Source: Kutzneria kofuensis (GTDB lineage Bacteria > Actinomycetota > Actinomycetes > Mycobacteriales > Pseudonocardiaceae). Taken from it: a stretch of 64,000 nucleotides of DNA. The notes under the pieces are model-generated. The model was not told the origin of the DNA, ran no database searches, and saw nothing but the letters and a program-made list of their open reading frames with translations. Location: positions 3,164,038 to 3,228,037 of the forward strand of contig NZ_JACHIR010000001.1 of the NCBI RefSeq assembly GCF_014203355.1, given 5' to 3'. The translations under genes were made by a program, and so were the position numbers. Of this stretch, positions 37,937 through 52,006 are shown piece after piece; position 1 is the stretch's first letter, and each line of letters starts with the position of its first letter.

Positions 37937-38002
37937 TCGCTACCGAGCAGGACCGGTGGCTGCACAGTTCGCCGGAAATTCCCCGAGAAGGAGTGAGCAG
38001 AC

Positions 38003-38305
38003 GTGCTGAAGAAGGCTGCCGTCGTCGCCATCGCCGCCGCCGGCATCACGCTGGCCGGCTCCCCGGCGTTCGCGTCCCCGATGCACGACGGCCCGGACCA
38101 GGCCGGCACCGTCAACGTCAACGACGTGCACGTGCTGAACGACGACCACGTGGCGGAGAACGTCGACATCCCGGTGTGCGCCACCAACAACACCATCGCC
38201 GGCGGCCTCGTCGCCGTCGCGGTGAACGCGCTGAACCCGACGTTCGTCAAGGACTGCGTCGACGGTGTGGCCGCCTCCACGAGCGGTGACCACCACGGCG
38301 GCTGA
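38003..38305 (+). CDS. Small secreted two-cysteine, His-rich protein, copy 2
   Basis: A 100-residue paralogue of the upstream gene. It has a signal peptide (MLKKAAVVAIAAAGITLAGS, cut near APAFA-like SPAFA) and a mature part sharing VNVNDVHVLNDDHV, the core CATNNTIAGG to NPTFVKDC, and GDHHGG with copy 1. Third-codon changes in the shared core show that the protein sequence is kept by selection. It lacks the first His cluster of copy 1. GTG start with AAGGAG at good distance. The pair may work as a heteromer at the cell surface; this is inference. Confidence 0.8.
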   Translation: MLKKAAVVAIAAAGITLAGSPAFASPMHDGPDQAGTVNVNDVHVLNDDHVAENVDIPVCATNNTIAGGLVAVAVNALNPTFVKDCVDGVAASTSGDHHGG

Positions 38306-38318
38306 GCCAGCCCGCCAA

Positions 38319-38357
38319 GCCGAGGGCGCCGGGACCGATGGTCCCGGCGCCCTCGGC
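38319..38357. terminator. Bidirectional terminator hairpin
   Basis: GCCGAGGGCGCCGGGACC and its exact complement surround a 3-nt loop, between secreted protein gene 2 and the convergent uppS-like gene. Confidence 0.87.
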
Positions 38358-38371
38358 GTCTCCTACGGGGT

Positions 38372-39157
38372 CTACGAGCCGTAGCGGCGGTGCCGCCAGG
38401 CGAAGTCACGCAGTGCGCGCAGGAAGTCGACGTGCCGGAACTCGGGCCAGTACGCCTCGGTGAACCAGAACTCCGAGTGCGCGGACTGCCAGAGCAGGAA
38501 GCCGGACAGCCGCTGCTCGCCGGAGGTGCGGATCAGCAGGTCCGGGTCGGGCTGCCCGGAGGTGTAGAGGTGCTCGGCGATGTGGTCCACGTCCAGGACC
38601 TCGGCCAGCTCCTCGATCGGCGTGCCGGCCTCAGCGTGCTGCAGCAGCAGCTTGCGCACCGCGTCGGCGATCTCCTGGCGGCCGCCGTAGCCGACGGCGA
38701 CGTTGACCTCCATGCCGTTGCGGTTGGCGGTGCGCTGCCCGGCCGCAGTGAGCCGGTTGGCAATGTCGGCGGGCAGCAGGTCGAGCGCGCCGACGATGCG
38801 CAGCCGCCACGGGTTGCCGGGCTCGGCGAGCTCGTCGACCACATCGGCGATGATCAGCAGCAGCGCCGACAGCTCGTCGCTGGAGCGCTTCTTCAGGTTG
38901 TCGGTGGCCAGCAGCCACAGGGTGACGACCTCGACCTCGGCCTCGCGGCACCACTCCAGCAGGTCGGCGATCTTGCGGGCGCCCGCGCGGTGACCGTCGG
39001 CGACGTCCTCGAAGCCGGCTTCCTTGGCCCATCTGCGGTTGCCGTCCAGGATCACGCCCACGTGCCGCGGTCGCCGCCTGGCCGCGGTGATCTGTTGGTT
39101 GAGGCGCATCTCGTACAGGCCGTAGACGATCCTGCTCAGGCGCTTGCGAAGACCCAC
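38372..39157 (-). CDS. uppS: Cis-prenyltransferase (isoprenyl diphosphate synthase)
   Basis: A 261-residue UPP-synthase-family enzyme with GVILDGNRRWAKEAG (catalytic Asp), LWLLATDNLKKRS and the C-terminal RTSGEQRLSGFLLWQSAHSE motif. It condenses IPP with allylic diphosphates in cis. Its position matches Rv1086, whose product is the short-chain Z,E-farnesyl diphosphate synthase feeding decaprenyl phosphate synthesis. So a short-chain role is likely, though full-length UPP synthase cannot be excluded. GTG start. Confidence 0.93.
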   Translation of the reverse strand: MGLRKRLSRIVYGLYEMRLNQQITAARRRPRHVGVILDGNRRWAKEAGFEDVADGHRAGARKIADLLEWCREAEVEVVTLWLLATDNLKKRSSDELSALLLIIADVVDELAEPGNPWRLRIVGALDLLPADIANRLTAAGQRTANRNGMEVNVAVGYGGRQEIADAVRKLLLQHAEAGTPIEELAEVLDVDHIAEHLYTSGQPDPDLLIRTSGEQRLSGFLLWQSAHSEFWFTEAYWPEFRHVDFLRALRDFAWRHRRYGS

Positions 39158-39201
39158 GCCACCGGAGGGTACGCCGGGACAAGGGATCGGGTCACATCAC
39201 G

Positions 39202-39231
39202 GTGACCGCGCAACCTACGGTGCCGTAACCT
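39202..39231 (+). promoter_or_regulatory. Predicted promoter of trhA (leaderless)
   Basis: GTGACC, 18-bp spacer, TAACCT, then 7 nt to the GTG start. Matches the leaderless pattern seen repeatedly in this window. Confidence 0.5.
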
Positions 39232-39238
39232 CGGTCGC

Positions 39239-39916
39239 GTGACCGCTGCGACCCTCGACCACACCCCGCCCGCACCGCCGAAGCCGCGGCTGCGGGGCTG
39301 GCTGCACTTCTGGTCGTTCTTCGCCTCGCTGGCCACCGGCGTGACCCTGGTGTCGGTCGCCGCGGCCACCGTGTCGGCGACGGCCGCGCTCGCGACTTCC
39401 GTGTACGGCTTGACGATTCTCGGCCTGTTCGGGGTCAGCGCGCTCTATCACCGGCGGAACTGGCTGAGCGTGCGGGCCAGGACGGTGATGAAGCGGCTCG
39501 ACCACTCGATGATCTTCGTGTTCATCGCCGGCACCTACACGCCGTTCGCCGTGCTGGCCCTGCCGGGGACGACCGGGACCATCGTGCTGTCGGTGGTGTG
39601 GGGCGGCGCGCTGCTCGGCGTGGCCCTGAAGATGGCCTGGCCGCACGCGCCCCGTTGGCTTGGCGTGCCGATCTACATCGCGCTCGGCTGGGTCGCGGTC
39701 TTCGTGCTGCCCGATCTGTTGCACCACGCGGGAATCACGTCGTTCGTGCTGCTGCTCGCCGGCGGCGCGCTGTACACCGCCGGCGCCGTCTTCTACGCCA
39801 CGAAGTGGCCCGACCCGTGGCCGAAGGTGTTCGGGTACCACGAGTTCTTCCACGCGGCGACGGTGCTGGCCGCGCTCTGCCACTACATCGCCATCTGGTT
39901 CGCGCTCTACCCGTGA
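39239..39916 (+). CDS. trhA: Hemolysin III/TrhA-family membrane protein
   Basis: A 225-residue protein with seven predicted spans and the PAQR-like motifs of the hemolysin III family: SALYHRRNW, RLDHSMIFVFIAGTYTPF and the final GYHEFFHAATVLAALCHY. The conserved His residues probably bind zinc. The family is linked to membrane fluidity control, while true hemolysis is doubtful. Matches Rv1085c in position and strand. GTG start, no ribosome site. Confidence 0.93.
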   Translation: MTAATLDHTPPAPPKPRLRGWLHFWSFFASLATGVTLVSVAAATVSATAALATSVYGLTILGLFGVSALYHRRNWLSVRARTVMKRLDHSMIFVFIAGTYTPFAVLALPGTTGTIVLSVVWGGALLGVALKMAWPHAPRWLGVPIYIALGWVAVFVLPDLLHHAGITSFVLLLAGGALYTAGAVFYATKWPDPWPKVFGYHEFFHAATVLAALCHYIAIWFALYP

Positions 39917-39943
39917 GCGGGCCCTGCCCACGGGTAGCAACGC

Positions 39944-40504
39944 TCAGCCCAAGTCCGGACCCTGGTTGCGGACGTCGTTGACCTTCTGCATCGCCTGGCG
40001 CAGCTCGGTGAGCCAGGCGTCGGCGTGCTCGCCGACCAGTCGCACCGCCCAGGCCAGAGCCTCGGAGCGGGATCGGGCCACGCCGGCGTCGACGAGCGTG
40101 TCCAGCACCAGCCGCTCGGACTGGCGCAGCCTCGTCATCACCGGCGCGGACAGCGTGGTGAACAGTTCGGTGGTGCCGCCGAGCTTCGCGCCCCAGGCGA
40201 CCTTGCGGCCGTAGCGGTGCTCGGCCTGGCGGGCGATCTCGATCCGCTCGTCGCGGGTCTGCTCGCGGAACCGGCTGATCCGGCCCGACTCGGCGGCGGC
40301 GCGCGCCGCGTCGTCGGCGAACTCGCCCTCCAGCGCCGGCAGCTCGCCGACGATGACGATCTCCTCGCGGTCCACGGTGATCTGCGGCGCGCCGGTGAAC
40401 CAGCCGTCGGGCAGCCGCCCGGCGAACCAGCCCGGCGCGTCGTCGGCGGACGGCACCTCGGCCTGCTGCCAGCCGCCCCGGCCCCGTGCGAAGCGTCCGT
40501 GCAT
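39944..40504 (-). CDS. Conserved hypothetical protein, ribbon-helix-helix-like C-terminus
   Basis: A 186-residue soluble protein without signal or membrane span. The N-terminal half has WFAGRLPDGWFTGAPQITVD and EIVIVGELP, followed by Arg/Glu-rich helices. The C-terminal part (RLVLDTLVDAGVARSRSEAL, AWAVRLVGEHADAWLTELR) resembles the SRSEAL segment of ribbon-helix-helix proteins. Function unknown. The ATG has a strong AAGGAGG site, and GATTACAT/GATTACAC direct repeats lie just upstream, so it may bind its own promoter; this is a guess. Confidence 0.78.
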   Translation of the reverse strand: MHGRFARGRGGWQQAEVPSADDAPGWFAGRLPDGWFTGAPQITVDREEIVIVGELPALEGEFADDAARAAAESGRISRFREQTRDERIEIARQAEHRYGRKVAWGAKLGGTTELFTTLSAPVMTRLRQSERLVLDTLVDAGVARSRSEALAWAVRLVGEHADAWLTELRQAMQKVNDVRNQGPDLG

Positions 40505-40592
40505 GACGACCTCCTTGATTACATGATTACACCGCTACACGGTACGCGCGGCAACGCCACTTACAAGGGTCGTTCGCCGGCGGCGGAAGCTC

Positions 40593-40640
40593 CACGTGAG
40601 TGGCTTATTTGCGCTCAGGGCGCACCTGAGCCACTCAGGT
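40593..40640. repeat. Intergenic palindromic element, single copy (terminator-like)
   Basis: TGAGTGGCT (40597-40605) pairs with AGCCACTCA (40629-40637), with an inner TGCGC/GCGCA stem and a short loop. The same element, slightly changed, is the last unit of the array at 53472-53520. It lies just past the stop of the DUF255 gene, so it probably acts as its terminator. Confidence 0.7.
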
Positions 40641-40673
40641 AGGGCAAAAATTGAAGGGTGTTAAGGAAAGGGC

Positions 40674-42686
<2,013 letters not shown>

Positions 42687-42753
42687 GCGCCCCAGCCTGC
42701 CACTCCGAGAATCCACATGCGCGTCCCCGTGACCATCCGGGACACTGGCGCGT

Positions 42754-44103
42754 GTGCTCCTGACCCTGACCACCACCATGCCGCAGGCCACTGACCTGGG
42801 CTTCCTCCTGCACAAGCACCCGGACAAGGCGCAGACGTTCCCCGTGTCCGCGGGTTCCGCGCACGTGTTCTACCCACGCGCCACCGACGCCGAGTGCACC
42901 GCGGCGCTGCTGCTGGAGGTCGACCCGATCGCGCTGGTTCGTGGCGACCGAGGTCAGGGGCTGTTCCAGTACGTCAACGACCGGCCGTACGCCGCCAGTT
43001 CGATGCTGGCGGTGGCGCTGGGGTCGGTATTCCGGACGGCCATGAACGGCCGCTGCGACGTGAAGCCGGAGCTGCCGGGGCGGGAGATCCCGCTCAGCGT
43101 GCACCTGCCGGTGGTACCGGCGCGCGGCGGCGCGGATCTCGTGCGGCGGCTGTTCGAGCCGCTGGGCTGGGCCGTGGGCGTTGAGCAGATCGAAAGCTCC
43201 CGCTACGTCGACCTGAGGCTGGCCGGCACGCTGCGGCTGGCCGACGCGCTGAACCACCTGTACGTGCTGCTGCCCGTGCTCGACGACGCAAAACACTACT
43301 GGGTGTCCCACGACGAGGTCGACAAGCTGCTGCGGGCCGGCGAGGGCTGGCTGGCCGCGCACCCGGAGCGGGAGCTGATCAGCCGCCGATACCTTGCGCA
43401 CCAGCGGGGTTACGTCCGATCGGCGCTGGAGCGGCTGGGCGAGGTGGACGAGTTCGACCCGGAGGACGCCGAACCCGGTCCGGAAAAATCGACACTGCGC
43501 CGAGAGTCCCTCGCGGAGCTGCGGCGCGCTGCCGTGCTGGCGGCGCTGCGGCAGTCCGGGGCCCGGCGCGTGGTCGACCTCGGCTGTGGGCCCGGGGCGC
43601 TGCTGCGTCTGCTGGTCAAGGACCCGCAGTTCGAGGAGATCCTCGGTGTGGACGTGTCGACGGCGGCGCTGCGCACGGCTGCCGACCGGCTCAACGACCG
43701 GGAGCTGCGGCGCGTCACCCTGCGGCAGTCGGCGTTGACGTACAAGGACGCGGAGCTGGCCGGTTACGACGCGGCGGTGCTGATGGAGGTCGTCGAGCAC
43801 CTCGACCCGCCGCGGCTGCCGGCGCTGGAGCGGTCGGTGTTCGGCGCGGCGAAACCGCGGACAGTGATCGTCACTACCCCGAACGTCGAGTACAACGTGC
43901 GGTACGAGGGCCTGGCGGCGGGCGCTTTCCGCCATCCGGACCACCGGTTCGAGTGGACCCGGGCGCAGTTCGCGGCGTGGGCGGAAGCCGTTGCCGCCCA
44001 GCATGGTTACCGCGTCCAGTACCTTCCCGTCGGAGAGCCGGACCCGGAGCTGGGTCCGCCGACGCAGATGGCCGTCTTCAGCCGGGAGGAGGAGGCGTCA
44101 TGA
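42754..44103 (+). CDS. hen1: Hen1 RNA 3'-terminal ribose 2'-O-methyltransferase
   Basis: A 449-residue bacterial Hen1. The N-terminal half ([20 protein letters not shown]) is the Hen1-specific domain that partners Pnkp. The C-terminal methyltransferase has the SAM loop [15 protein letters not shown] (about residue 273), metal-binding EVVEH (about 345-349) and HRFEW. It adds a 2'-O-methyl group at the 3' end of cleaved RNA before Pnkp ligates it, which makes the repaired junction resistant to a second ribotoxin cut. Known partners are encoded next door. Its stop overlaps the pnkp ATG. Confidence 0.95.
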
Positions 44104-46580
44104 CCGAGCTCGTCATCCCGCAGCTGTCGCTGGTCGCGCTGGTCGGCGCCTCCGGCTCGGGCAAGTCCACCTTCGCCCGCAAGCACTTCCGGCCGACCGA
44201 GGTGATCTCCAGTGATCACTGCCGCGGCCTGGTGTCCGACGACGACAACGACCAGTCGGCCACCGGCGACGCGTTCGACGTGCTGCACTACATCGCCGGC
44301 AAGCGGCTGCACAACGGCCGGCTGACCGTCGTGGACGCGACCAACGTGCAGCGCGAGGGGCGGGCGTCGCTGGTGCGGCTGGCCCGCGAACACGACGTGC
44401 TGCCGGTCGCCGTCGTGCTGGACCTGCCGGAGTCCGTGTGCTTCCAGCGCAACGAGGCCCGGCCGGACCGAGACTTCGGTGTGCACGTGATCCGGCGGCA
44501 GCGCAACGACCTGCGCCGGTCGCTGCGCTTCCTGGAGAAGGAGGGCTTCCGCCGCGTGCACGTGCTGCGCACGGTCGAGGAGGTCGAGGCCGTGACGATC
44601 CGCCGCGAGCCGCTGGTCAACGACCGGCGCGGCGAGACCGGGCCGTTCGACATCATCGGCGACGTGCACGGCTGCCGCGCCGAGCTGACGGAACTGCTGG
44701 CACGGCTGGGATATCACGTCGAAGGCGACTTCGCGTCGCACCCGGCGGGGCGCCGCGCGGTGTTCGTCGGCGACCTCGTGGATCGTGGACCGGACACGCC
44801 GGGCGTGCTGCGGCTGGTGATGAACATGGTCGCCGCCGGCACGGCGCTGTGCGTGGCCGGAAACCACGAGAACAAGCTGGTCCGGGCCCTGCGCGGGCGC
44901 AACGTGCAGGTGACGCACGGGCTGGCGGAGTCGCTGGCGCAGCTGTCCGAGCAGCCGGAGGAGTTCCGCAAGCAGGCCGAGCAGTTCTGCTACGACCTCG
45001 TGTCGCACTACGTGCTGGACGGCGGCAAGCTGGTCGTGGCGCACGCCGGGCTGCCGGAGCGGTACCAGGGGCGGGCGTCCGGCCGGGTGCGCAGTTTCGC
45101 GCTGTACGGGGAGACGACCGGGGAGACCGACGAGTACGGACTGCCGGTTCGGTATCCGTGGGCCAACGACTACCGCGGCAGCGCGACCGTGGTGTACGGG
45201 CACACGCCGGTGCCGTCCGCCGAGTGGGTGAACAACACCATCTGTCTGGACACCGGGTGTGTGTTCGGCGGCCGGCTGACGGCGCTGCGGTATCCGGAGC
45301 GGGAGCTCGTTTCCGTTGCGGCGGAAAAGGTCTGGTACGAGCCGGTGCGGCCGTTGGCGCCGGTGGAAGCGGTGCGGCCGCCGGACGAGCTGGACCTCAC
45401 CGACGTGATCGGCAAGCGGACCGTGCAGACGGCCAACCACGGCCGGCTGACCGTGCGCGCGGAGAACGCGGCGGCGGCGATCGAGGTGATGAGCCGGTTC
45501 GCGATCGAGCCGGCGAAGCTGCTGTACCTGCCGCCGACGATGGCTCCGGTGGCGACGTCGCAGCGCCCGGAGGTGTTGGAGCATCCGGAGGAGGCGTTCG
45601 CCGGGTACCGGCACGACGGCGTGGATCGGGTCGTGTGCGAGGAGAAGCACATGGGCTCACGGGCCGTTGTGTTGGTGTCGCGCGACGGCGGTGCCGTGCA
45701 CACACGGACCGGTCGGTCGTTCTTCGACGAGGAACTGACCGGGCAGCTGCTGGAGCGAATCCGTTCTGCCATCGCGAAGGCCGCGCTTTGGTCTACTTTG
45801 GACACTGACTGGCTGCTGCTCGACTGCGAGCTGCTGCCGTGGAACGCCAAGGCGGGCGCGTTGATCCGGGAGCAGTACGCGGCGGTCGGCGCGGCGGCCC
45901 AGGGTGCTCTGCCGGCAGCCGTCGACGTCCTGCGCGAGGCGTCCCACCGGGGCGTTGACGTGACGGAACTGTTGGCGCGCACGGAGTCCCGGGCCTCGAA
46001 CGCCGCCGCCTACCGCGAGGCGTACGAGCGGTACTGCTGGCCGACCGAGGGCCTGAACGGCGTGCGGATCGCCCCGTTCCAGCTGCTCGCGTCGGAGAAG
46101 GCCACGTACCACGACCGCCCGCACTCCTGGCACCTCGCACTGGCCGACCAGCTCTCCGCCGCCGACCCGGAGTTGTTCGCCAGCACGGCAAACCTGACCG
46201 TGGACACGACCGACCCCGAGTCGGTCAGGGCCGGCGTGCGCTGGTGGGAGGAGCTGACCGCGGCCGGCGGCGAGGGCATGGTCGTCAAGCCGATGGCCAA
46301 CCTGACGCGCGGCCGGCGCGGGCTGGTGCAGCCGGGGCTGAAGGTGCGCGGGCGGGAGTACCTGCGGATCATCTACGGGCCCGACTACACCGAGCCGGGC
46401 AACATCGACCGGCTGCGGCAGCGTGGCCTCGCGGCCAAGCGGTCGCTGGCGGCACGGGAGTACGCGCTGGGCATCGAGGGACTGGAGCGGCTGGCCCGCG
46501 GCGAGCCGCTGTGGCGCGTGCACGAATGCGTGTTCGCCGTGCTGGCGCTGGAGTCCGAACCCGTGGATCCGAGGCTGTAG
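44100..46580 (+). CDS. pnkp: Polynucleotide kinase-phosphatase-ligase Pnkp
   Basis: A three-domain RNA-repair enzyme of 826 residues. The 5' kinase has P-loop GASGSGKST (residue about 16-24). The 2',3' phosphatase has IIGDVHGCR, GDLVDRGPDT, GNHENK and YGHTPV. The C-terminal ligase-like adenylyltransferase has the nucleotidyl Lys in CEEKHMGSRA (about residue 518). It heals both ends of cut RNA, and with Hen1 seals them. All catalytic motifs are intact and length is normal. Start fixed by the ATGA overlap with hen1; the next gene starts right after the stop. Confidence 0.96.
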   Translation: MTELVIPQLSLVALVGASGSGKSTFARKHFRPTEVISSDHCRGLVSDDDNDQSATGDAFDVLHYIAGKRLHNGRLTVVDATNVQREGRASLVRLAREHDVLPVAVVLDLPESVCFQRNEARPDRDFGVHVIRRQRNDLRRSLRFLEKEGFRRVHVLRTVEEVEAVTIRREPLVNDRRGETGPFDIIGDVHGCRAELTELLARLGYHVEGDFASHPAGRRAVFVGDLVDRGPDTPGVLRLVMNMVAAGTALCVAGNHENKLVRALRGRNVQVTHGLAESLAQLSEQPEEFRKQAEQFCYDLVSHYVLDGGKLVVAHAGLPERYQGRASGRVRSFALYGETTGETDEYGLPVRYPWANDYRGSATVVYGHTPVPSAEWVNNTICLDTGCVFGGRLTALRYPERELVSVAAEKVWYEPVRPLAPVEAVRPPDELDLTDVIGKRTVQTANHGRLTVRAENAAAAIEVMSRFAIEPAKLLYLPPTMAPVATSQRPEVLEHPEEAFAGYRHDGVDRVVCEEKHMGSRAVVLVSRDGGAVHTRTGRSFFDEELTGQLLERIRSAIAKAALWSTLDTDWLLLDCELLPWNAKAGALIREQYAAVGAAAQGALPAAVDVLREASHRGVDVTELLARTESRASNAAAYREAYERYCWPTEGLNGVRIAPFQLLASEKATYHDRPHSWHLALADQLSAADPELFASTANLTVDTTDPESVRAGVRWWEELTAAGGEGMVVKPMANLTRGRRGLVQPGLKVRGREYLRIIYGPDYTEPGNIDRLRQRGLAAKRSLAAREYALGIEGLERLARGEPLWRVHECVFAVLALESEPVDPRL

Positions 46581-47252
46581 ATGATCGAGCACACCGTGTT
46601 GTCCGTGATCGTCGGCTCGCACGCGTACGGGCTGGACACCGACGAGTCCGATGTGGACCGCCGGGGCGTGTACGTGCCGCCGACGCGGCTGTTCTGGACC
46701 TTCGAGAAGCCGCCGACCTCGGTGGACGGGCCGGAGCAGGAACGGGTGAGCTGGGAGGTCGAGCACTTCCTCGCGTTGGGGCTGAAGGCCAACCCCACCG
46801 TGCTGGAGGTGCTCGCTTCCGACCTCGTCGAGACGTGCACTCCACTGGGCGAGGAGCTGCGGGCCCTGCTTCCGGCGCTGCTGTCCCAGCGGGCCGCCGA
46901 CAGCTTCCGTCGGGCCACCGCGCAGCAGTTCGCACGGGCCGCCGCCGCCATGGCCAGCGGCGGCACGCCTCGGTGGAAGCAGGTCATGCACGTGATCCGA
47001 CTGTTGACCCTGTGCGACCGGCTACTGACCACCGGAGAACTGGTGATCAAGGTCGGCGAGCACCGGTCGCAGCTGCTGGCCGTGCGCGAAGGCGACGTGC
47101 CGTGGAAGGACGTCGTGAAGTGGGTGGAGGATCTGCGCGACCGCACCGCGCGGGCCGTGCTCCGCTCCCCGCTGCCCGCGGTGCCCGACACCGCCGCCGT
47201 CGAGGACTGGCTGGTGTCGGTGCGCCGGAGATCCGCTTTGGAGGAACTGTGA
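46581..47252 (+). CDS. Nucleotidyltransferase (COG3541-like), RNA-repair operon
   Basis: A 223-residue Pol-beta-superfamily nucleotidyltransferase: VGSHAYGLDTDESDVDRRGV (about residues 11-30) is the GS...DxD active site. Helical regions follow. Its ATG directly abuts the pnkp stop, and its own stop overlaps the next start, so it belongs to the hen1-pnkp operon. By family it could add nucleotides to RNA ends, for example rebuilding a damaged tRNA 3' end, or modify a protein. This is inference; no third catalytic Asp was placed with certainty. Confidence 0.88.
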   Translation: MIEHTVLSVIVGSHAYGLDTDESDVDRRGVYVPPTRLFWTFEKPPTSVDGPEQERVSWEVEHFLALGLKANPTVLEVLASDLVETCTPLGEELRALLPALLSQRAADSFRRATAQQFARAAAAMASGGTPRWKQVMHVIRLLTLCDRLLTTGELVIKVGEHRSQLLAVREGDVPWKDVVKWVEDLRDRTARAVLRSPLPAVPDTAAVEDWLVSVRRRSALEEL

Positions 47253-48004
47253 CCGCCGTGGACGTTCCCGGGCTGCGTGAGGTCGTCGCCGAACAGCCGT
47301 ACCGGCTGCTGTTCGCCACCGTGTCCGGCGCGCACCTGTACGGCTTCCCGTCCGCCGACTCCGACGTGGACCTGCGGGGCGTGCACCTGCTGCCCGCCGA
47401 CGAGGTGATCGGGCTGCGGCACGGACCGGAGACGCTGGAGCGGATGTGGCTGCGGGACGGGGTCGAACTCGACCTCGTCACCCACGACCTGCTCAAGTTC
47501 GTCCGACTTCTGTTGCGCCCCAACGGTTATGTTCTCGAGCAGCTGCTGTCCCCGCTGGTCGTCCAGACCTCCGACGCCCACGCCGAGCTCGCCGGCCACG
47601 CCGCCGGGTGCATCACCCGGCGGCACGCCCACCACTACCGGGGCTTCGCCCACACCCAGTGGCAGCTGTTCGGCCGTAACAACGAGCTCAAGCCCCTGCT
47701 CTACACGTTCCGGGCCCTGCTCACCGGCATCAACCTCATGCGCACCGGCGTGATCGAGGCGGATCTGTCCGTGCTGGTCGAAAGCCTCGACGGGCCGTCG
47801 TTCCTGCCCGAGCTCATCGCCGCCAAGGCCGCTGGCGAACACCTCACCCTGACCGGCGGCCCGTCACCGGAGCAGCTGTGGCAGACCTACGAGCAGTGGC
47901 TGGCGGAGTTGGTCGCCGCGCAGGAGAAGTCCACGCTCCCCGAGCAGCCCTCGGCCGAACCCCAGCTGCACGACTTCGTGGTCCGACTCCGACTCACAGC
48001 CTGA
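47249..48004 (+). CDS. Second nucleotidyltransferase (COG3541-like), RNA-repair operon
   Basis: A 251-residue relative of the preceding protein. Its active-site motif reads SGAHLYGFPSADSDVDLRGV, with Ala in place of the usual Ser of the GS motif but both Asp kept. A possible third acidic site is VELDLVTHDLLKFV. The C-terminal half (HHYRGFAHTQWQLFGRNNEL, then FRALLTGINLM) is helical like minimal nucleotidyltransferase partners. GTG start coupled by GTGA. Two unequal copies suggest a heterodimer or different substrates. Confidence 0.88.
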   Translation: MTAVDVPGLREVVAEQPYRLLFATVSGAHLYGFPSADSDVDLRGVHLLPADEVIGLRHGPETLERMWLRDGVELDLVTHDLLKFVRLLLRPNGYVLEQLLSPLVVQTSDAHAELAGHAAGCITRRHAHHYRGFAHTQWQLFGRNNELKPLLYTFRALLTGINLMRTGVIEADLSVLVESLDGPSFLPELIAAKAAGEHLTLTGGPSPEQLWQTYEQWLAELVAAQEKSTLPEQPSAEPQLHDFVVRLRLTA

Positions 48005-48006
48005 AC

Positions 48007-48091
48007 CCCCGGCGAGTCCCGCTCACCGTCACACCGAAAGCGCGAAACCGATTCACGCATTCGGTGTGACGCTCGGCGGGACTCGCCGGGG
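48007..48091. terminator. Long two-part inverted repeat after the RNA-repair operon
   Basis: CCCCGGCGAGTCCCGC pairs with GCGGGACTCGCCGGGG (48076-48091), and GTCACACCGAA pairs with TTCGGTGTGAC (48060-48070); a 5-nt internal bulge and a 21-nt loop remain. It starts 3 bp after the operon stop. The left arm of the opposite gene's end lies inside it, so it may stop transcription from both sides. Confidence 0.75.
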
Positions 48092-48418
48092 TCGGGTGCG
48101 GGCCATCAGGACGATGCTGACGATCAACGTGGTCAGGATCAGCCCGTGGTAGGTGAGGTCGGGCACCGACTTGGGGCCGGGGCCGCTGCTGATGGCGGTG
48201 ATGCCGACGACGGTGCCGAAGGCGGCGAAACCGCTGGTCCACAACGCCACCGCGCGGCGGCCGCGCAGCGCGAAGAAGGCGCCGACGGCCATGACCACGC
48301 CGATCAGGGCCTCGGGCCCGGCGGCGCCCGGCTCCCACTCGACGGTGAGGTGCAGCAAGGACGCGACCAGGAAGGTGGCGGCCTCGACGATCATCAGGTA
48401 ACCGAATCCCCGTGGCAT
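48053..48418 (-). CDS. Small four-span membrane protein
   Basis: A 121-residue protein with four hydrophobic segments (beginning LMIVEAATFLVASLLHLTVE) joined by short loops such as LRGRRAVALW. It is not a named family to me. The last dozen residues (RTRPRRVPPSVTPNA) are encoded inside the long inverted repeat, so the true C-terminus may be a by-product of that element. ATG start without a strong ribosome site. Confidence 0.62.
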   Translation of the reverse strand: MPRGFGYLMIVEAATFLVASLLHLTVEWEPGAAGPEALIGVVMAVGAFFALRGRRAVALWTSGFAAFGTVVGITAISSGPGPKSVPDLTYHGLILTTLIVSIVLMARTRPRRVPPSVTPNA

Positions 48419-48494
48419 GCGGCCAAGCCTCCCCGCAACGCCCGCGAACCGCGTCGGCCCGGAGGCGACACCCGTACGTACGCCCGAGCGCGTA

Positions 48495-49103
48495 TCAGCC
48501 GAGCAGCTTGAGCCACGGGTGGTCGGGGTGCTGGCGGCTGATCAAGTCGGCGCAGCGGTGCCGCCCGGCGGCGTCCAGCCACGGCAGGGTGGCGACCAGG
48601 TCGGCCTCGTCACGGGCGAGGGCGTCCCGGGCCTTGAACAGGATCACCAGCTCGGGCCGCAGGTAGCGGATGCCGCGCCCTTCCCAGGTCGCCTCGGCCA
48701 GCGGCAATGCCAGCGACGGATCCCGCTGGTAGACCCACTTGCCGTCGCGGTCGTCGGTGAGCTTGATGTCCAGCAGCCACGGCGCGGACGCGTGCTCGCG
48801 GATCCACAGCTGGCCGGCCCACGACGGCAGGTCCTCGCCCCAGGTGACCGGCTTCAGGGCCCCGTCACCGAAGGCCCATACGTGGAACCGGGCGGAGAAG
48901 TGCTCGATCACGGCCGGCAGGTCGCGGCGGAAGACGCCGAGGTCGATGTCGCGGTGCTCCCGGCGCACGGCCGCGTACGCCTCGATCGCCCACCCGCCGC
49001 AGATCCACCACGGCACGTCGAGGCCGGCACACAGCGCCGCCGCGTCGTCGGGCTTGACCATCCCCCAAGGCCCGTACCACGCGGCGACGTCCGACCCGCC
49101 CAC
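48495..49103 (-). CDS. Nucleotidyltransferase of the aminoglycoside-adenylyltransferase-like type
   Basis: A 202-residue protein with WWICGGWAIEAYAAVRREHR followed by DIDLGVFRRD, the GGW...DxD pattern of the aminoglycoside nucleotidyltransferase-like family (related to AadA/LinB types), and a DGKWVYQRDPSLALPL segment. Such proteins can adenylate drugs, but many are of unknown role. GTG start immediately after the stop of the upstream small gene (TAGGTG); ATG at 49061 is an alternative. Likely co-transcribed from mca. Confidence 0.82.
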   Translation of the reverse strand: MGGSDVAAWYGPWGMVKPDDAAALCAGLDVPWWICGGWAIEAYAAVRREHRDIDLGVFRRDLPAVIEHFSARFHVWAFGDGALKPVTWGEDLPSWAGQLWIREHASAPWLLDIKLTDDRDGKWVYQRDPSLALPLAEATWEGRGIRYLRPELVILFKARDALARDEADLVATLPWLDAAGRHRCADLISRQHPDHPWLKLLG

Positions 49104-49349
49104 CTACTCCCCGGTCTTCGGCGTCGGCTCGTCCGGCGGGTCGAAACTGGCCGGCACCCGCTTGAGGTGCTTGGTCATCGACCGGATCAGGAACGCGACG
49201 GCGACGAAGAAGAGGATGAGCACGACAAAACCGACGGGCGTGGACTTGCCGAAGTCCTCCCCCTGACCGCCCTGGTCGGTGTTGGCGGGTGTGGTGGTGG
49301 CGGTGGTCGTCTCGGCCAGCGCCACCCCCGGGACCGGAAGACCGGTCAC
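49104..49349 (-). CDS. Small membrane protein linked to mca (Rv1083-like)
   Basis: An 81-residue protein with a Thr-rich N-terminus ([16 protein letters not shown]), one membrane span (about residues 37-56, [20 protein letters not shown]) and a basic/acidic tail [20 protein letters not shown]. It overlaps the mca stop by 4 bp (GTGA). A small membrane protein lies in the same place in mycobacteria (Rv1083). The role in mycothiol metabolism is unknown. Confidence 0.83.
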
Positions 49350-50227
49350 ACGTGCACCTTCTCTCGAACTCCGGCGAACAGGTCGTCCTCGGGCAGCGTG
49401 GTGTCCACCAGCGACCGGACGAGCTCGTACTCCTCGGTCGGCCACACCTCGCGCTGCAGGTCCAAGGGTACGGCGAACCACCGGGAGGTGGGATCGATCT
49501 GGGTGGCGTGCGCCCGCAGCGCGGCCAGGCCCTGCTCGAAGTAGTCGGCGCAGTCGACCTGGGTGGTGACCCGCTCCATGTTGTCCTTGCGGTTCGGGTC
49601 CCAGTTGGCCAGCCACTCCTCGTACGGCGACTCCAGGCCCCGGGCCAGCAGCGCCTCGTGGAACGCGACCAGCTTGGCCCGGGAGAAGCCGTGCGAGTAG
49701 TACAGCTTGGACGTCTGCCAGGGCTCGCCGGCCTCGGGGAACTGGTCGGGGTCGGCGGCGGCGTCGAAGGCCGCGACGGAGACCTCGTGGCAGCGGATGT
49801 GGTCGGGGTGCGGGTAGCCGCCGTTCTCGTCGTAGGTGACGATGACGTGCGGCCGGAACTCGCGGACCACCCGGACCAGCGCCTCGGTGGACTCCTCCAG
49901 CGGCACCAGCGCGAAGCAGCCCTCGGGCAGCGGCGGCTTGGGGTCGCCCTCGGGCAGGCCGGAGTCGACGTAGCCGAGCCAGCGGTGCTGGATGCCGAGG
50001 ATCTTGGCGGCGGTGGCCATCTCCTCGCGCCGGATCTCGGCCATGTTCTCCAGCACGTCCGGCCGGTCCATGGCCGGGTTCAGGATGCTGCCCCGCTCGC
50101 CGCCTGTGCAGGTCACGACCATCACGTCGTGGCCCTCGGCGACGTAGCGCGCCATTGTGGCGGCGCCCTTGCTGGACTCGTCGTCGGGGTGTGCGTGCAC
50201 TGCCATCAGGCGCAGCTTCTCGGCCAT
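49346..50227 (-). CDS. mca: Mycothiol S-conjugate amidase
   Basis: A 293-residue zinc amidase of the MshB/LmbE fold: [13 protein letters not shown] and [12 protein letters not shown] carry the metal ligands, with [15 protein letters not shown] typical of Mca. It cleaves mycothiol-toxin conjugates to a mercapturic acid and GlcN-Ins. This is one of the clearest markers that the host makes mycothiol, so it is an actinobacterium. Full length; matches Rv1082. Confidence 0.97.
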
Positions 50228-50347
50228 GGTCCCCTCATCGTCGTATCCACCCTGCCCGCCGGCCTCACCGGGGGCCCAGGGATACTCAACCGGGCGGTCA
50301 GAGCCATTGTTCCAAAGGGGTCCGACAGTCCCGAGCGAGGAGGCGAC

Positions 50348-50773
50348 ATGGTCACACAGCGTGAGCTCCCGGCCGGCCGCTACGGCTCCCGGGACAAGCG
50401 TCGTGGCCCGCGCTGGGCGTACTGGGCATTACTCGGCGTGTTCGTCGTGGCCGGCCTGGTGGTGGCCTACGTGGCGTACGTCAACCTGGGCGACGGCCCG
50501 ATCACGACCGAGGCCGCCCGGTACACCGTCGTCGACGACGGCTCGGTCAGGTTCGGCTTCACCGTCACCCGCGACGACCCGTCCAAACCGGCCGACTGCA
50601 TCGTCCGGGCCCGCGCCGGCGACGGCGACGAGGCCGGCGTCCGTGAGGTCTACGTGCCCGCGGGCGGCGCCCAACGCACGGTCGACACGGTGGTGCACAC
50701 CTCGAAACGAGCAGTGATCGTGGAGGTGTACGGCTGCTCGTACCAGGTGCCCCCTTACCTGAAGAACAACTAG
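50348..50773 (+). CDS. DUF4307 membrane protein
   Basis: A 141-residue protein with a basic cytoplasmic start ([14 protein letters not shown]), one membrane span (about residues 25-46) and an extracytoplasmic beta-rich domain with two Cys (ADCIVRA; VYGCSYQ). This is the DUF4307 pattern; Rv1081c holds the same place between mca and greA. Function unknown. ATG with GAGGAGG upstream. Divergent from mca. Confidence 0.9.
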
Positions 50774-50845
50774 CCGCCAAGCGGGTGAACCGGCCCGCAA
50801 GCAGTCGTGGACCTGCGAAAATTCCGACGCCGGGCACTGGCGGCG

Positions 50846-50854
50846 TGCTAGAAT
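50846..50854 (+). promoter_or_regulatory. Extended -10 promoter of greA
   Basis: TGCTAGAAT is a near-perfect extended -10 box (TGN-TANAAT). The start of transcription would fall near 50861, only a few bases before the leader terminator and about 135 nt before the greA GTG. Confidence 0.65.
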
Positions 50855-50864
50855 CGTTCGACAG

Positions 50865-50893
50865 CACGGCCCCTTTCCACGGGCCGTGTTTTT
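50865..50893 (+). terminator. Terminator hairpin inside the greA leader
   Basis: CACGGCCC pairs with GGGCCGTG around an 8-nt loop and is followed at once by TTTTT, a textbook intrinsic terminator and a rare T-run in this GC-rich DNA. It lies between the greA promoter and the gene. Most transcripts should end here as a short RNA of about 30 nt unless antitermination occurs. Confidence 0.75.
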
Positions 50894-50896
50894 CCG

Positions 50897-50941
50897 TTCC
50901 GGGCCTCACGGCCCGGAAGTTCCCGGCATGCCATTGGCATG
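50897..50941 (+). promoter_or_regulatory. Two further hairpins in the greA leader
   Basis: TTCCGGGCC/GGCCCGGAA with a TCAC tetraloop (50897-50918), then CATGCC/GGCATG with a 3-nt loop (50927-50941). They directly follow the leader terminator. They could form alternative structures or guide antitermination or RNA processing. Confidence 0.55.
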
Positions 50942-50994
50942 TCGGTGCCCGCGTGTCCGACATGGGCCCGGAGTACGACGAGGAGTTGGTGACC

Positions 50995-51483
50995 GTGAGC
51001 GAGACCCAGGTGACCTGGCTGACCCAGGAATCCTACGACCGGCTCAAGCACGAGCTTGACGAGCTGATCGCGAACCGCCCGGTCATTGCCGCCGAGATCA
51101 ACGCTCGGCGTGAGGAAGGCGACCTCAGGGAGAACGGCGGGTACCACGCCGCCCGCGAGGAGCAGGGCAAGCAGGAGGGCCGGATCCGTCAGCTGCAGGA
51201 GCTGCTGCGCGCCGCCAAGGTGGGCGAGGCGCCCGCCAACGACGGCACCGCCGAGCCCGGCAAGGTGCTCACCGTCCGTTACGAGGACGACGAGGACACC
51301 GAGCAGTTCCTGCTGGCCACCCGCGAGGAGGGCGCGGAGGGTCCCCTGGAGGTGTTCTCGCCTGCGTCCCCGATCGGCCGCGCGCTGCTGGGCGCCAAGG
51401 AGGGCGAGACCCGGGAGTACGAGCTGCCCAACGGCAAGAACATGAAGGTCACGCTGGTCAAGGCGGTGCCCTACACCGGCTGA
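50995..51483 (+). CDS. greA: Transcription elongation factor GreA
   Basis: GreA of 162 residues: N-terminal coiled coil ([20 protein letters not shown]; acidic tip around [20 protein letters not shown]) and C-terminal FKBP-like domain ([17 protein letters not shown]). It reaches into the RNA polymerase secondary channel and stimulates cleavage of backtracked RNA. The GTG giving [18 protein letters not shown] matches mycobacterial GreA; the open frame upstream is the structured leader, not protein. GAGGAG lies upstream. Confidence 0.96.
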
Positions 51484-51497
51484 GCCACGGCCTTGCC

Positions 51498-51531
51498 GCC
51501 CTGGTCGCCGCTCACGGTGACCAGGGCTTTT
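51498..51531 (+). terminator. Terminator after greA
   Basis: GCCCTGGTCGCCG pairs with CGGTGACCAGGGC (one mismatch) around CTCA, followed by TTTT. The hairpin reaches into the last codons of the convergent Lrp-family gene. Confidence 0.8.
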
Positions 51532-52006
51532 GCTCGTTCGCGACCCGCTGCAGCAGCGGCCGGACCCGCGGCTCGATCGGCGTGGACAGCGCGATCGCCG
51601 TCGACGTCCGCTGCACGCCCGGCACCGCGACCACCTCGTCCACGACCCGCTGCAGGTCGTCGTTGGACCGCGCGACCATGCGCACGTGCAGGTCGCCCTG
51701 CCCCGTGGTGGCGTGCACCTCGCAGACCTCGTCGATGGCGGCCAGCTGCGCCGCCACCTCGGAGCGGCGCCCCTGGGCGATCTCCAGCACCGCGAACGCC
51801 GTCAGCCCGTAGCCCATCGCGGCCAGGTCGACCGCGGGCGGGAAGCCGCGCAGGATGCCCCGCTCGGCCAGCCGATCCAGCCGGGCCTGCACGGTGCCGC
51901 GGGCCACGCCCAGTCGGCGCGAACATTCCAGCACCCCCAGCCGGGGCTCGTCGGTGAGCAGCAGCAACAGCCTCGCGTCGAGCGCGTCCATCGGTTCCCG
52001 GTCCAT
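51512..52006 (-). CDS. Lrp/AsnC-family transcriptional regulator
   Basis: A 164-residue regulator: HTH (VLECSRRLGVARGTVQARLD) and RAM ligand-binding domain (VMTTGQGDLHV-like ATTGQGDLHVRMVARSNDDL, then VPGVQRTSTAIALSTPI). Lrp-type proteins bind amino acids and form octamers on DNA. It diverges from hpd, with a perfect palindrome between them, so it most likely controls tyrosine breakdown in response to an aromatic or branched amino acid. ATG at 52006; ATG five codons later is an alternative. Confidence 0.92.
   Translation of the reverse strand: MDREPMDALDARLLLLLTDEPRLGVLECSRRLGVARGTVQARLDRLAERGILRGFPPAVDLAAMGYGLTAFAVLEIAQGRRSEVAAQLAAIDEVCEVHATTGQGDLHVRMVARSNDDLQRVVDEVVAVPGVQRTSTAIALSTPIEPRVRPLLQRVANEQKPWSP

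Follow-up and report, generated by a model that had tools for sequence, protein, structure and literature searches.

What do two nucleotidyltransferases do behind the genes of a bacterial RNA-repair system, and do they take part in the repair itself? This question is raised by a group of genes at 42754-48004 of the window, by which we mean the whole 64-kb stretch of DNA that was analysed, from a soil actinobacterium with a genome of 10.4 Mb. The group consists of four plus-strand open reading frames, hen1, pnkp, NT1 and NT2, which abut or overlap, and it is framed by two minus-strand genes that mark the borders of the site:

40674..42686, minus strand: DUF255/thioredoxin-domain protein (PF03190, E 2e-75), left border of the site, divergent from hen1; same neighbour in related genomes
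42754..44103, plus strand: hen1, 3'-terminal RNA ribose 2'-O-methyltransferase with N-terminal Pnkp-associating region (TIGR04074, 648 bits, cut-off 340; Hen1_L PF12623, E 2e-100; GTG start)
44100..46580, plus strand: pnkp, polynucleotide kinase, phosphatase and ligase in a single chain (TIGR04075, 1390 bits, cut-off 750; PNKP_ligase PF16542, E 2e-175; Metallophos; AAA_33)
46581..47252, plus strand: NT1 (RlaP-A), Pol-beta-type nucleotidyltransferase of 223 aa with GSHAYGL...SDVD (PF10127, E 5e-26, 92.4 bits, cut-off 23; alignment; tree)
47249..48004, plus strand: NT2 (RlaP-B), Pol-beta-type nucleotidyltransferase of 251 aa with SGAHLYGF...SDVD (PF10127, E 5e-46, 158 bits, cut-off 23; alignment; tree)
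49346..50227, minus strand: mca, mycothiol conjugate amidase (TIGR03446, 520 bits, cut-off 277), right border of the site; same neighbour in related genomes

The junctions are an ATGA between hen1 and pnkp, a TAG followed directly by the ATG of NT1, and a GTGA between NT1 and NT2, which confirms the coupling by ATGA, direct abutment and GTGA that had been read from this DNA in the original prediction. The GTG start of hen1 at 42754 gives an encoded N-terminus in agreement with the start annotated for Deinococcus ficus Hen1 (MLLTISTTHHPATDLG). Hen1 and Pnkp are encoded by adjacent genes and both score far above the curated equivalog cut-offs, and inspection by eye finds all of their motifs present, that is the P-loop, GDVHG/GNHE, the ligase lysine and EVVEH of Hen1, which we take to be the catalytic ones. 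Among the PADLOC models, mad2 is matched by the Hen1 methyltransferase region (E 3e-13) and mad3 by Pnkp over 17 residues (E 0.003), and none is matched by NT1 or NT2. No known RNA family was found within 38000-52000 and no tRNA within the 64-kb window, and a scan for promoters and terminators gave nothing above chance. Between NT2 and mca lies a further gene (48495-49103, minus strand) for a nucleotidyltransferase-like protein of PF10706 (aminoglycoside 2''-adenylyltransferase type; 28 bits, cut-off 21), which occupies the same place in the remaining six of six genomes of the genus and has a 37% relative beside the nucleotidyltransferase pair of genome G612.

Two branches of RlaP and their joint recurrence

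Both nucleotidyltransferases exceed the gathering cut-off of Pfam PF10127, RlaP, the 'RNA repair pathway DNA polymerase beta family', which is the sole Pfam family that either of them matches at E 0.01. Burroughs and Aravind are said to have described RlaP in 2016 as RNA ligase-associated Pol-beta nucleotidyltransferases with a predicted role in repair. In passages of two further papers, the prediction for RlaP is that it replaces lost nucleotides ahead of ligation (PMC7824862), and the family is reported to be spread over several counter-RNase repair systems (PMC6514570); an experimental test of RlaP was not found among the matches listed in the literature searched. The original prediction had placed the two proteins outside the described Hen1-Pnkp complex, which may hold for biochemistry but does not stand for comparative genomics, where both are RlaP proteins and the family has already been given a predicted function.

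The two proteins are far apart within this family. In a tree of 149 actinobacterial RlaP sequences, whose rows were first sorted by motif, which carries a midpoint root only and from which three fragments of broken genes had been excluded, the 25 NT2 rows form one clade (SH-aLRT 99), and the branch that parts NT2 from NT1 rows has a support of 96. Further clades are NT1b (22 rows), T3 (57 rows, with GSxxHG) and T4 (3 rows); these clade names, as well as the labels A for the NT1 side and B for the NT2 side, were coined in this analysis. The NT1 and NT2 profiles align with each other over near full length (E 4e-22, 24% identity). A recent tandem duplication was considered as the origin of the pair and rejected, since the two lie on opposite sides of a supported branch and share 24% identity in the full-length profile match. 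As judged from tree and alignment, NT1 and NT2 are two old branches of RlaP.

Pol-beta-type active sites are marked by hG[GS], then DxD, plus a third acidic residue. In the 26-row alignment of NT1, G12 S13, D24 and D26 are invariant; the candidates for the third acid, the putative third metal ligand, are E54, which is nearly invariant and stands opposite D75 of NT2 by column reading of the profile alignment, and E59, which is invariant. In the 23-row alignment of NT2, D39, D41 and D75 are invariant and G27 A28 replaces GS, a replacement found in 25 of 25 NT2 sequences, the GA/GS motif being itself part of the row sorting. Sequence searches with the two profiles identified no protein of solved structure as a relative (best E 0.67 and 0.86).

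The tree also holds some members of separate interest. Four RlaP-A relatives (L295, L296, L298 and L299 in genomes G290, G357, G404 and G348) form a clade that resembles a conserved pseudo-enzyme, because GS and DxD are gone and the remainder is kept. NT1b (loci L250-L267 and L269, except L268) is the sister group of NT1; it was found in 13 genomes of a sample of the class, and no NT1 was found in the eight Streptomyces among these. The Deinococcus NT-A proteins (L311:8075-8989, L312:8018-8974, L310:8090-9004) and the NT-A protein of genome G054 (L017) have about 80 additional aa at the N-terminus (LPxGTQVV...), which are absent from NT1 of the window.

Pairs made of one A and one B protein also occur beside hen1 and pnkp outside Actinomycetota. 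Eighteen non-Actinomycetota plasmid records have a Pnkp match, and 17 of these stretches were viewed, the Erythrobacter record being left out; RlaP adjoins Pnkp in four of the 17, and the RlaP profile has no match in the other 13. The gene order is hen1-A-B-pnkp on the plasmids of Deinococcus gobiensis and D. ficus, in which hen1-A and A-B overlap by four bases, hen1-pnkp-A-B on a plasmid of Asticcacaulis sp. DW145, and hen1-pnkp-B-A on a plasmid of Hymenobacter sp. DG25B, in which hen1 and part of pnkp match in several pieces and frames. The Deinococcus, Asticcacaulis and Hymenobacter sets thus contain Hen1, Pnkp and two nucleotidyltransferases in three gene orders in total. In an extended tree the two nucleotidyltransferases of each plasmid operon fall on opposite sides of the branch (support 97), the Asticcacaulis and Hymenobacter rows being long branches that drew a warning from the tool. 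By this placement, the pairing of one RlaP per branch beside hen1-pnkp recurs over four phyla. This bears on the conservation check proposed along with the original prediction, namely whether such nucleotidyltransferases stand beside hen1/pnkp in this genome only, and the notion that they are a peculiarity of one genome was rejected, as the set recurs in the genus, in other genera and in other phyla.

Several of the plasmid stretches hold further genes of note. D. taeanensis has a hen1-A-B set in a record without Pnkp at E 1e-30, and a Thg1-family gene (L310:5012-5791) lies about 0.9 kb upstream of its hen1. On plasmid pAMS5b of Methylobacterium sp. AMS5 (L318), hen1-pnkp lies in the vicinity of a gene with a ribonuclease domain and an immunity gene of the Imm8 family, and on plasmid pSR-1 of Skermanella rosea (L317) in that of rtcB-prfH.

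Linkage to hen1-pnkp and history of the site

Within Actinomycetota, NT1 and NT2 form a separate module, because they occur together much more often than they are seen next to pnkp. Among named actinobacterial NT2 loci with fetched flanks, the best 80 of at least 579 relatives, NT1 lies in the flank of 75, and Pnkp lies in the flank of only 16 (Kutzneria 2, Lentzea 11, Microtetraspora 2, Actinomadura 1), with Pnkp reduced to a fragment and Hen1 missing at one Lentzea locus. Pnkp is thus absent from the fetched flanks of 64 of the 80, including all 43 Streptomyces loci. The two genes are convergent in all 42 of the 43 Streptomyces loci that have NT1, as well as in Actinacidiphila and Kitasatospora, and they are in tandem in other genera. 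In the class sample of 296 genomes, NT1 is present in 17 of 18 NT2 genomes, and in two of these (G300 and G329) NT2 is in broken pieces. A search with a crude gene caller, which misses genes, found no conserved extra partner of the stand-alone pair beyond lineage synteny. Where linkage is seen, its form varies: hen1, pnkp, NT1 and NT2 stand in a row in G035 and G162, G425 has NT2, NT1, pnkp and hen1 inside about 10 kb with gaps between the genes, a T3-type RlaP adjoins hen1-pnkp in G066 and G422, and in G030 an RlaP match of no assigned type, interrupted by an internal stop, is found on the far side of hen1, about 1.6 kb away from pnkp.

The association with Pnkp was also followed at the level of whole genomes. 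All co-occurrence values are Fisher tests on related genomes, so that their significance is overstated, with phylogeny and genome size as confounders: in the class sample (n=296), RlaP and the Pnkp ligase domain are found together in 66 genomes, RlaP alone in 12, Pnkp alone in 21 and neither in 197 (odds ratio 52, p 1e-34), in a sample of the order (n=200) the corresponding numbers for RlaP and full Pnkp over the cut-off are 34, 17, 23 and 126 (odds ratio 11, p 2e-11), and in Streptomyces (n=121), a sample to which the genus name was given by four loci identical to named Streptomyces loci, those for RlaP and the ligase domain over the cut-off are 100, 1, 11 and 9 (odds ratio 82, p 1e-7). When Streptomyces is split by size, the association is not significant in genomes of up to 7.0 Mb (p 0.18) and has a p of 0.003 in larger ones. 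By RlaP type, Pnkp is present in 22 of 23 class-sample genomes with NT1, 17 of 18 with NT2, 13 of 13 with NT1b and 28 of 34 with T3, compared to a base rate of 87/296; eight of the 78 RlaP genomes of this sample fall in none of these four lists. Pnkp occurs without RlaP in 21 of 87 Pnkp genomes in the class and in 23 of 57 in the order. These results bear out the original claim of a tie between the nucleotidyltransferases and hen1-pnkp, since the set is found again in other genomes and phyla, RlaP and Pnkp co-occur, and both nucleotidyltransferases keep DxD.

An alternative is that NT1-NT2 is an independent module that modifies RNA ends, by tailing or by repair with other ligases such as RtcB, and stands beside hen1-pnkp only sometimes. 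We consider this rather unlikely. It draws on the same 75 and 16 of 80 loci (of the best 80 of at least 579), on four genomes that have a pair and no Pnkp over the cut-off (G038, G126, G354 and G175, the last with NT2 broken over two frames), and on hen1-pnkp genes without the pair at the DUF255-mca site. Against it stand the repeated linkage to hen1-pnkp over four phyla in differing gene orders and the presence of Pnkp in 22/23 NT1 and 17/18 NT2 class genomes. Where no Pnkp passes the cut-off, six of six genomes with NT1 or the pair and five of six with a T3-type RlaP encode RtcB, but this is uninformative, because RtcB also occurs in nine of 12 genomes that lack both RlaP and Pnkp; matches of the Rnl type were mixed.

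The history of the site itself was followed at 35 family loci of 40 genomes, three of the remainder being already known and two left out. DUF255 and mca are neighbours without any of the four genes at 18 loci, hen1-pnkp alone is present at six and all four genes at two, and the rest comprise five loci at which the Pnkp match does not include the ligase part, one fusion and three uninformative loci. Four genomes of another genus have DUF255-hen1-pnkp-mca without NT1 or NT2. The genus of the window includes Kutzneria, as loci of two of its genomes, G200 and G203, agree letter for letter over 600 bases with named loci of K. buriramensis and Kutzneria sp. CA-103260. In this genus, five of seven genomes keep the four-gene order; NT2 is missing behind hen1-pnkp-NT1 in a sixth, and the seventh has NT1 there but no hen1-pnkp. 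As originally described, the island does interrupt a conserved DUF255-mca order, which the 18 of 35 loci document; its insertion as a unit finds no support, since hen1-pnkp is also present without the nucleotidyltransferases at the same site. Because the site holds none of the genes, hen1-pnkp alone or all four, hen1-pnkp and the pair come and go separately. This suggests a modular history, in which the pair may have been gained later or may have been lost in some lines, both being possible. Four loci of this site from four genera (L340, L351, L358 and L359) carry Pnkp matches of about 420 residues with kinase and phosphatase, without ligase and without a hen1 match, and the match at L344 is shorter.

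A putative role in restoring RNA ends

Two further observations place RlaP next to enzymes of RNA ends. A relative of the nucleotidyltransferases adjoins an RNA ligase gene in Gordonia phage Daredevil and a polynucleotide kinase gene in Streptomyces phage pSt2308, so that linkage of RlaP to RNA ligase or end-healing genes is found in the window, in four phyla and in two phages. In G612, a single genome and the sole one of its genus in the set, one open frame of 641 codons (L338:2795-4717, minus strand) joins a Pnkp-like part to an intact NT1, with NT2 next to it; the kinase P-loop is lost and the phosphatase motifs GDVHG, GDLVDRG and GNHE are kept, and neither a ligase domain nor Hen1 was found in the 14.5-kb stretch. 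Of all observations, the fusion points most directly to a possible action of the A enzyme on the end made by the 3'-phosphatase.

We favour, with a probability of roughly 55%, the reading that two complementary RlaP enzymes restore nucleotides at the healed 3' end as part of Hen1-Pnkp repair. In ribotoxin-cut RNA, Pnkp would remove the 2',3'-cyclic phosphate or 3'-phosphate and phosphorylate the 5'-OH, the A/B pair would return one or a few nucleotides lost from the freed 3' end, Hen1 would methylate the terminal 2'-OH after the nucleotides are returned, and the ligase domain of Pnkp would seal the RNA last. The functions of Hen1 and Pnkp are taken as known, in part from passages of the cited papers; gene content, family membership and the presence of motifs are observed directly, and the reaction of the pair, the order of the steps, the action of A and B on the same RNA end and their partnership are what we infer. 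Membership of both proteins in RlaP, the published prediction for RlaP, the sets in four phyla, the co-occurrence, the linkage in phages and the G612 fusion all speak for this restoring role. Against it count the absence of Pnkp from the flanks of 64 of 80 NT2 loci, the four pair genomes with no Pnkp over the cut-off and the many Pnkp genomes without RlaP, as well as the 13 of 17 plasmid Pnkp stretches without RlaP, the p of 0.18 in small Streptomyces genomes, GA in place of GS in NT2, the single genome with the fusion and the long branches of plasmid nucleotidyltransferases.

The same evidence bears on two other roles for the pair. Modification of a protein, by AMPylation or UMPylation of Hen1, Pnkp or the ribotoxin, would make the pair a regulator of repair; operon coupling fits regulation equally, and other small Pol-beta-type proteins do modify proteins, but the neighbours of the phage relatives are RNA ligase or kinase genes, Hen1 being absent from the stretches shown, two DxD-bearing nucleotidyltransferases per operon exceed the need for one regulator, and a phosphatase-NT1 fusion without ligase or Hen1 leaves fewer protein targets, so that we regard this as improbable. 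Very improbable is a nucleotidyltransferase toxin with its antitoxin, of the tRNA-blocking type and parked beside repair genes, for which one can cite that other nucleotidyltransferases act as toxins or antitoxins, that there are two genes, which are translationally coupled in the window and have counterparts on some plasmids, and that AbiE-type genes lie near the D. gobiensis copy, but orientation varies, being convergent in Streptomyces, no PADLOC model matches either protein, and neither resembles a HEPN or DNA-binding antitoxin, because both have DxD and match RlaP alone in Pfam at E 0.01.

Within the restoring role, a more specific form can be put forward tentatively, as possible but doubtful: RlaP-A and RlaP-B might be an obligate two-enzyme unit, a heterodimer or a relay, that writes a defined short sequence at the healed 3' end, the two enzymes differing in their nucleotide or position preferences. 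If this were true, cells with Hen1-Pnkp could repair not just cut RNA but also RNA from which nucleotides are missing, and the rule of one RlaP per branch over four phyla would be the signature of a division of labour. An example of a lesion that would need the return of a nucleotide is provided by RloC, which, according to a passage of the paper describing it, excises the wobble nucleotide (PMC2610378). The one-per-branch rule and the phosphatase-NT1 fusion give a small and concrete set of proteins with which the function of RlaP can be tested.

Relation to known systems

The operon of the window belongs to a kind of RNA-repair operon that has already been predicted, and we do not claim that the A/B pairing is unpublished; what the comparison adds is the paired-branch rule, co-occurrence without close linkage, the fusion of phosphatase and NT1 and the modular history of the DUF255-mca site. 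Among phage genes for RNA repair, those that include an RlaP-like nucleotidyltransferase resemble the operon in that the nucleotidyltransferase lies beside an RNA ligase (Daredevil) or a polynucleotide kinase (pSt2308), and differ in having a single nucleotidyltransferase and no Hen1 in the stretch shown. In the Capnocytophaga Pnkp1-Rnl-Hen1 complex, as described in part of PMC4411300, kinase-phosphatase, ligase and Hen1 likewise act jointly on ribotoxin-cut RNA, whereas the ligase is a separate protein, and the word polymerase is absent from the main text of that paper. The bacterial Pnkp-Hen1 operon defined by TIGR04074 and TIGR04075 has the same two proteins with all domains and overlapping genes, but in the window it is followed by two RlaP genes, while no NT1 or NT2 match appears within flanks of 1.5 kb at 28 of 30 Pnkp loci from this order. 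Finally, NT1 and NT2 are members of the RlaP family by the Pfam cut-off, and the role predicted for this family, in the passages cited above, is the one named first in the original prediction, the rebuilding of lost 3' nucleotides; the operon of the window stands out from the family by having two members at once, one from each deep branch.
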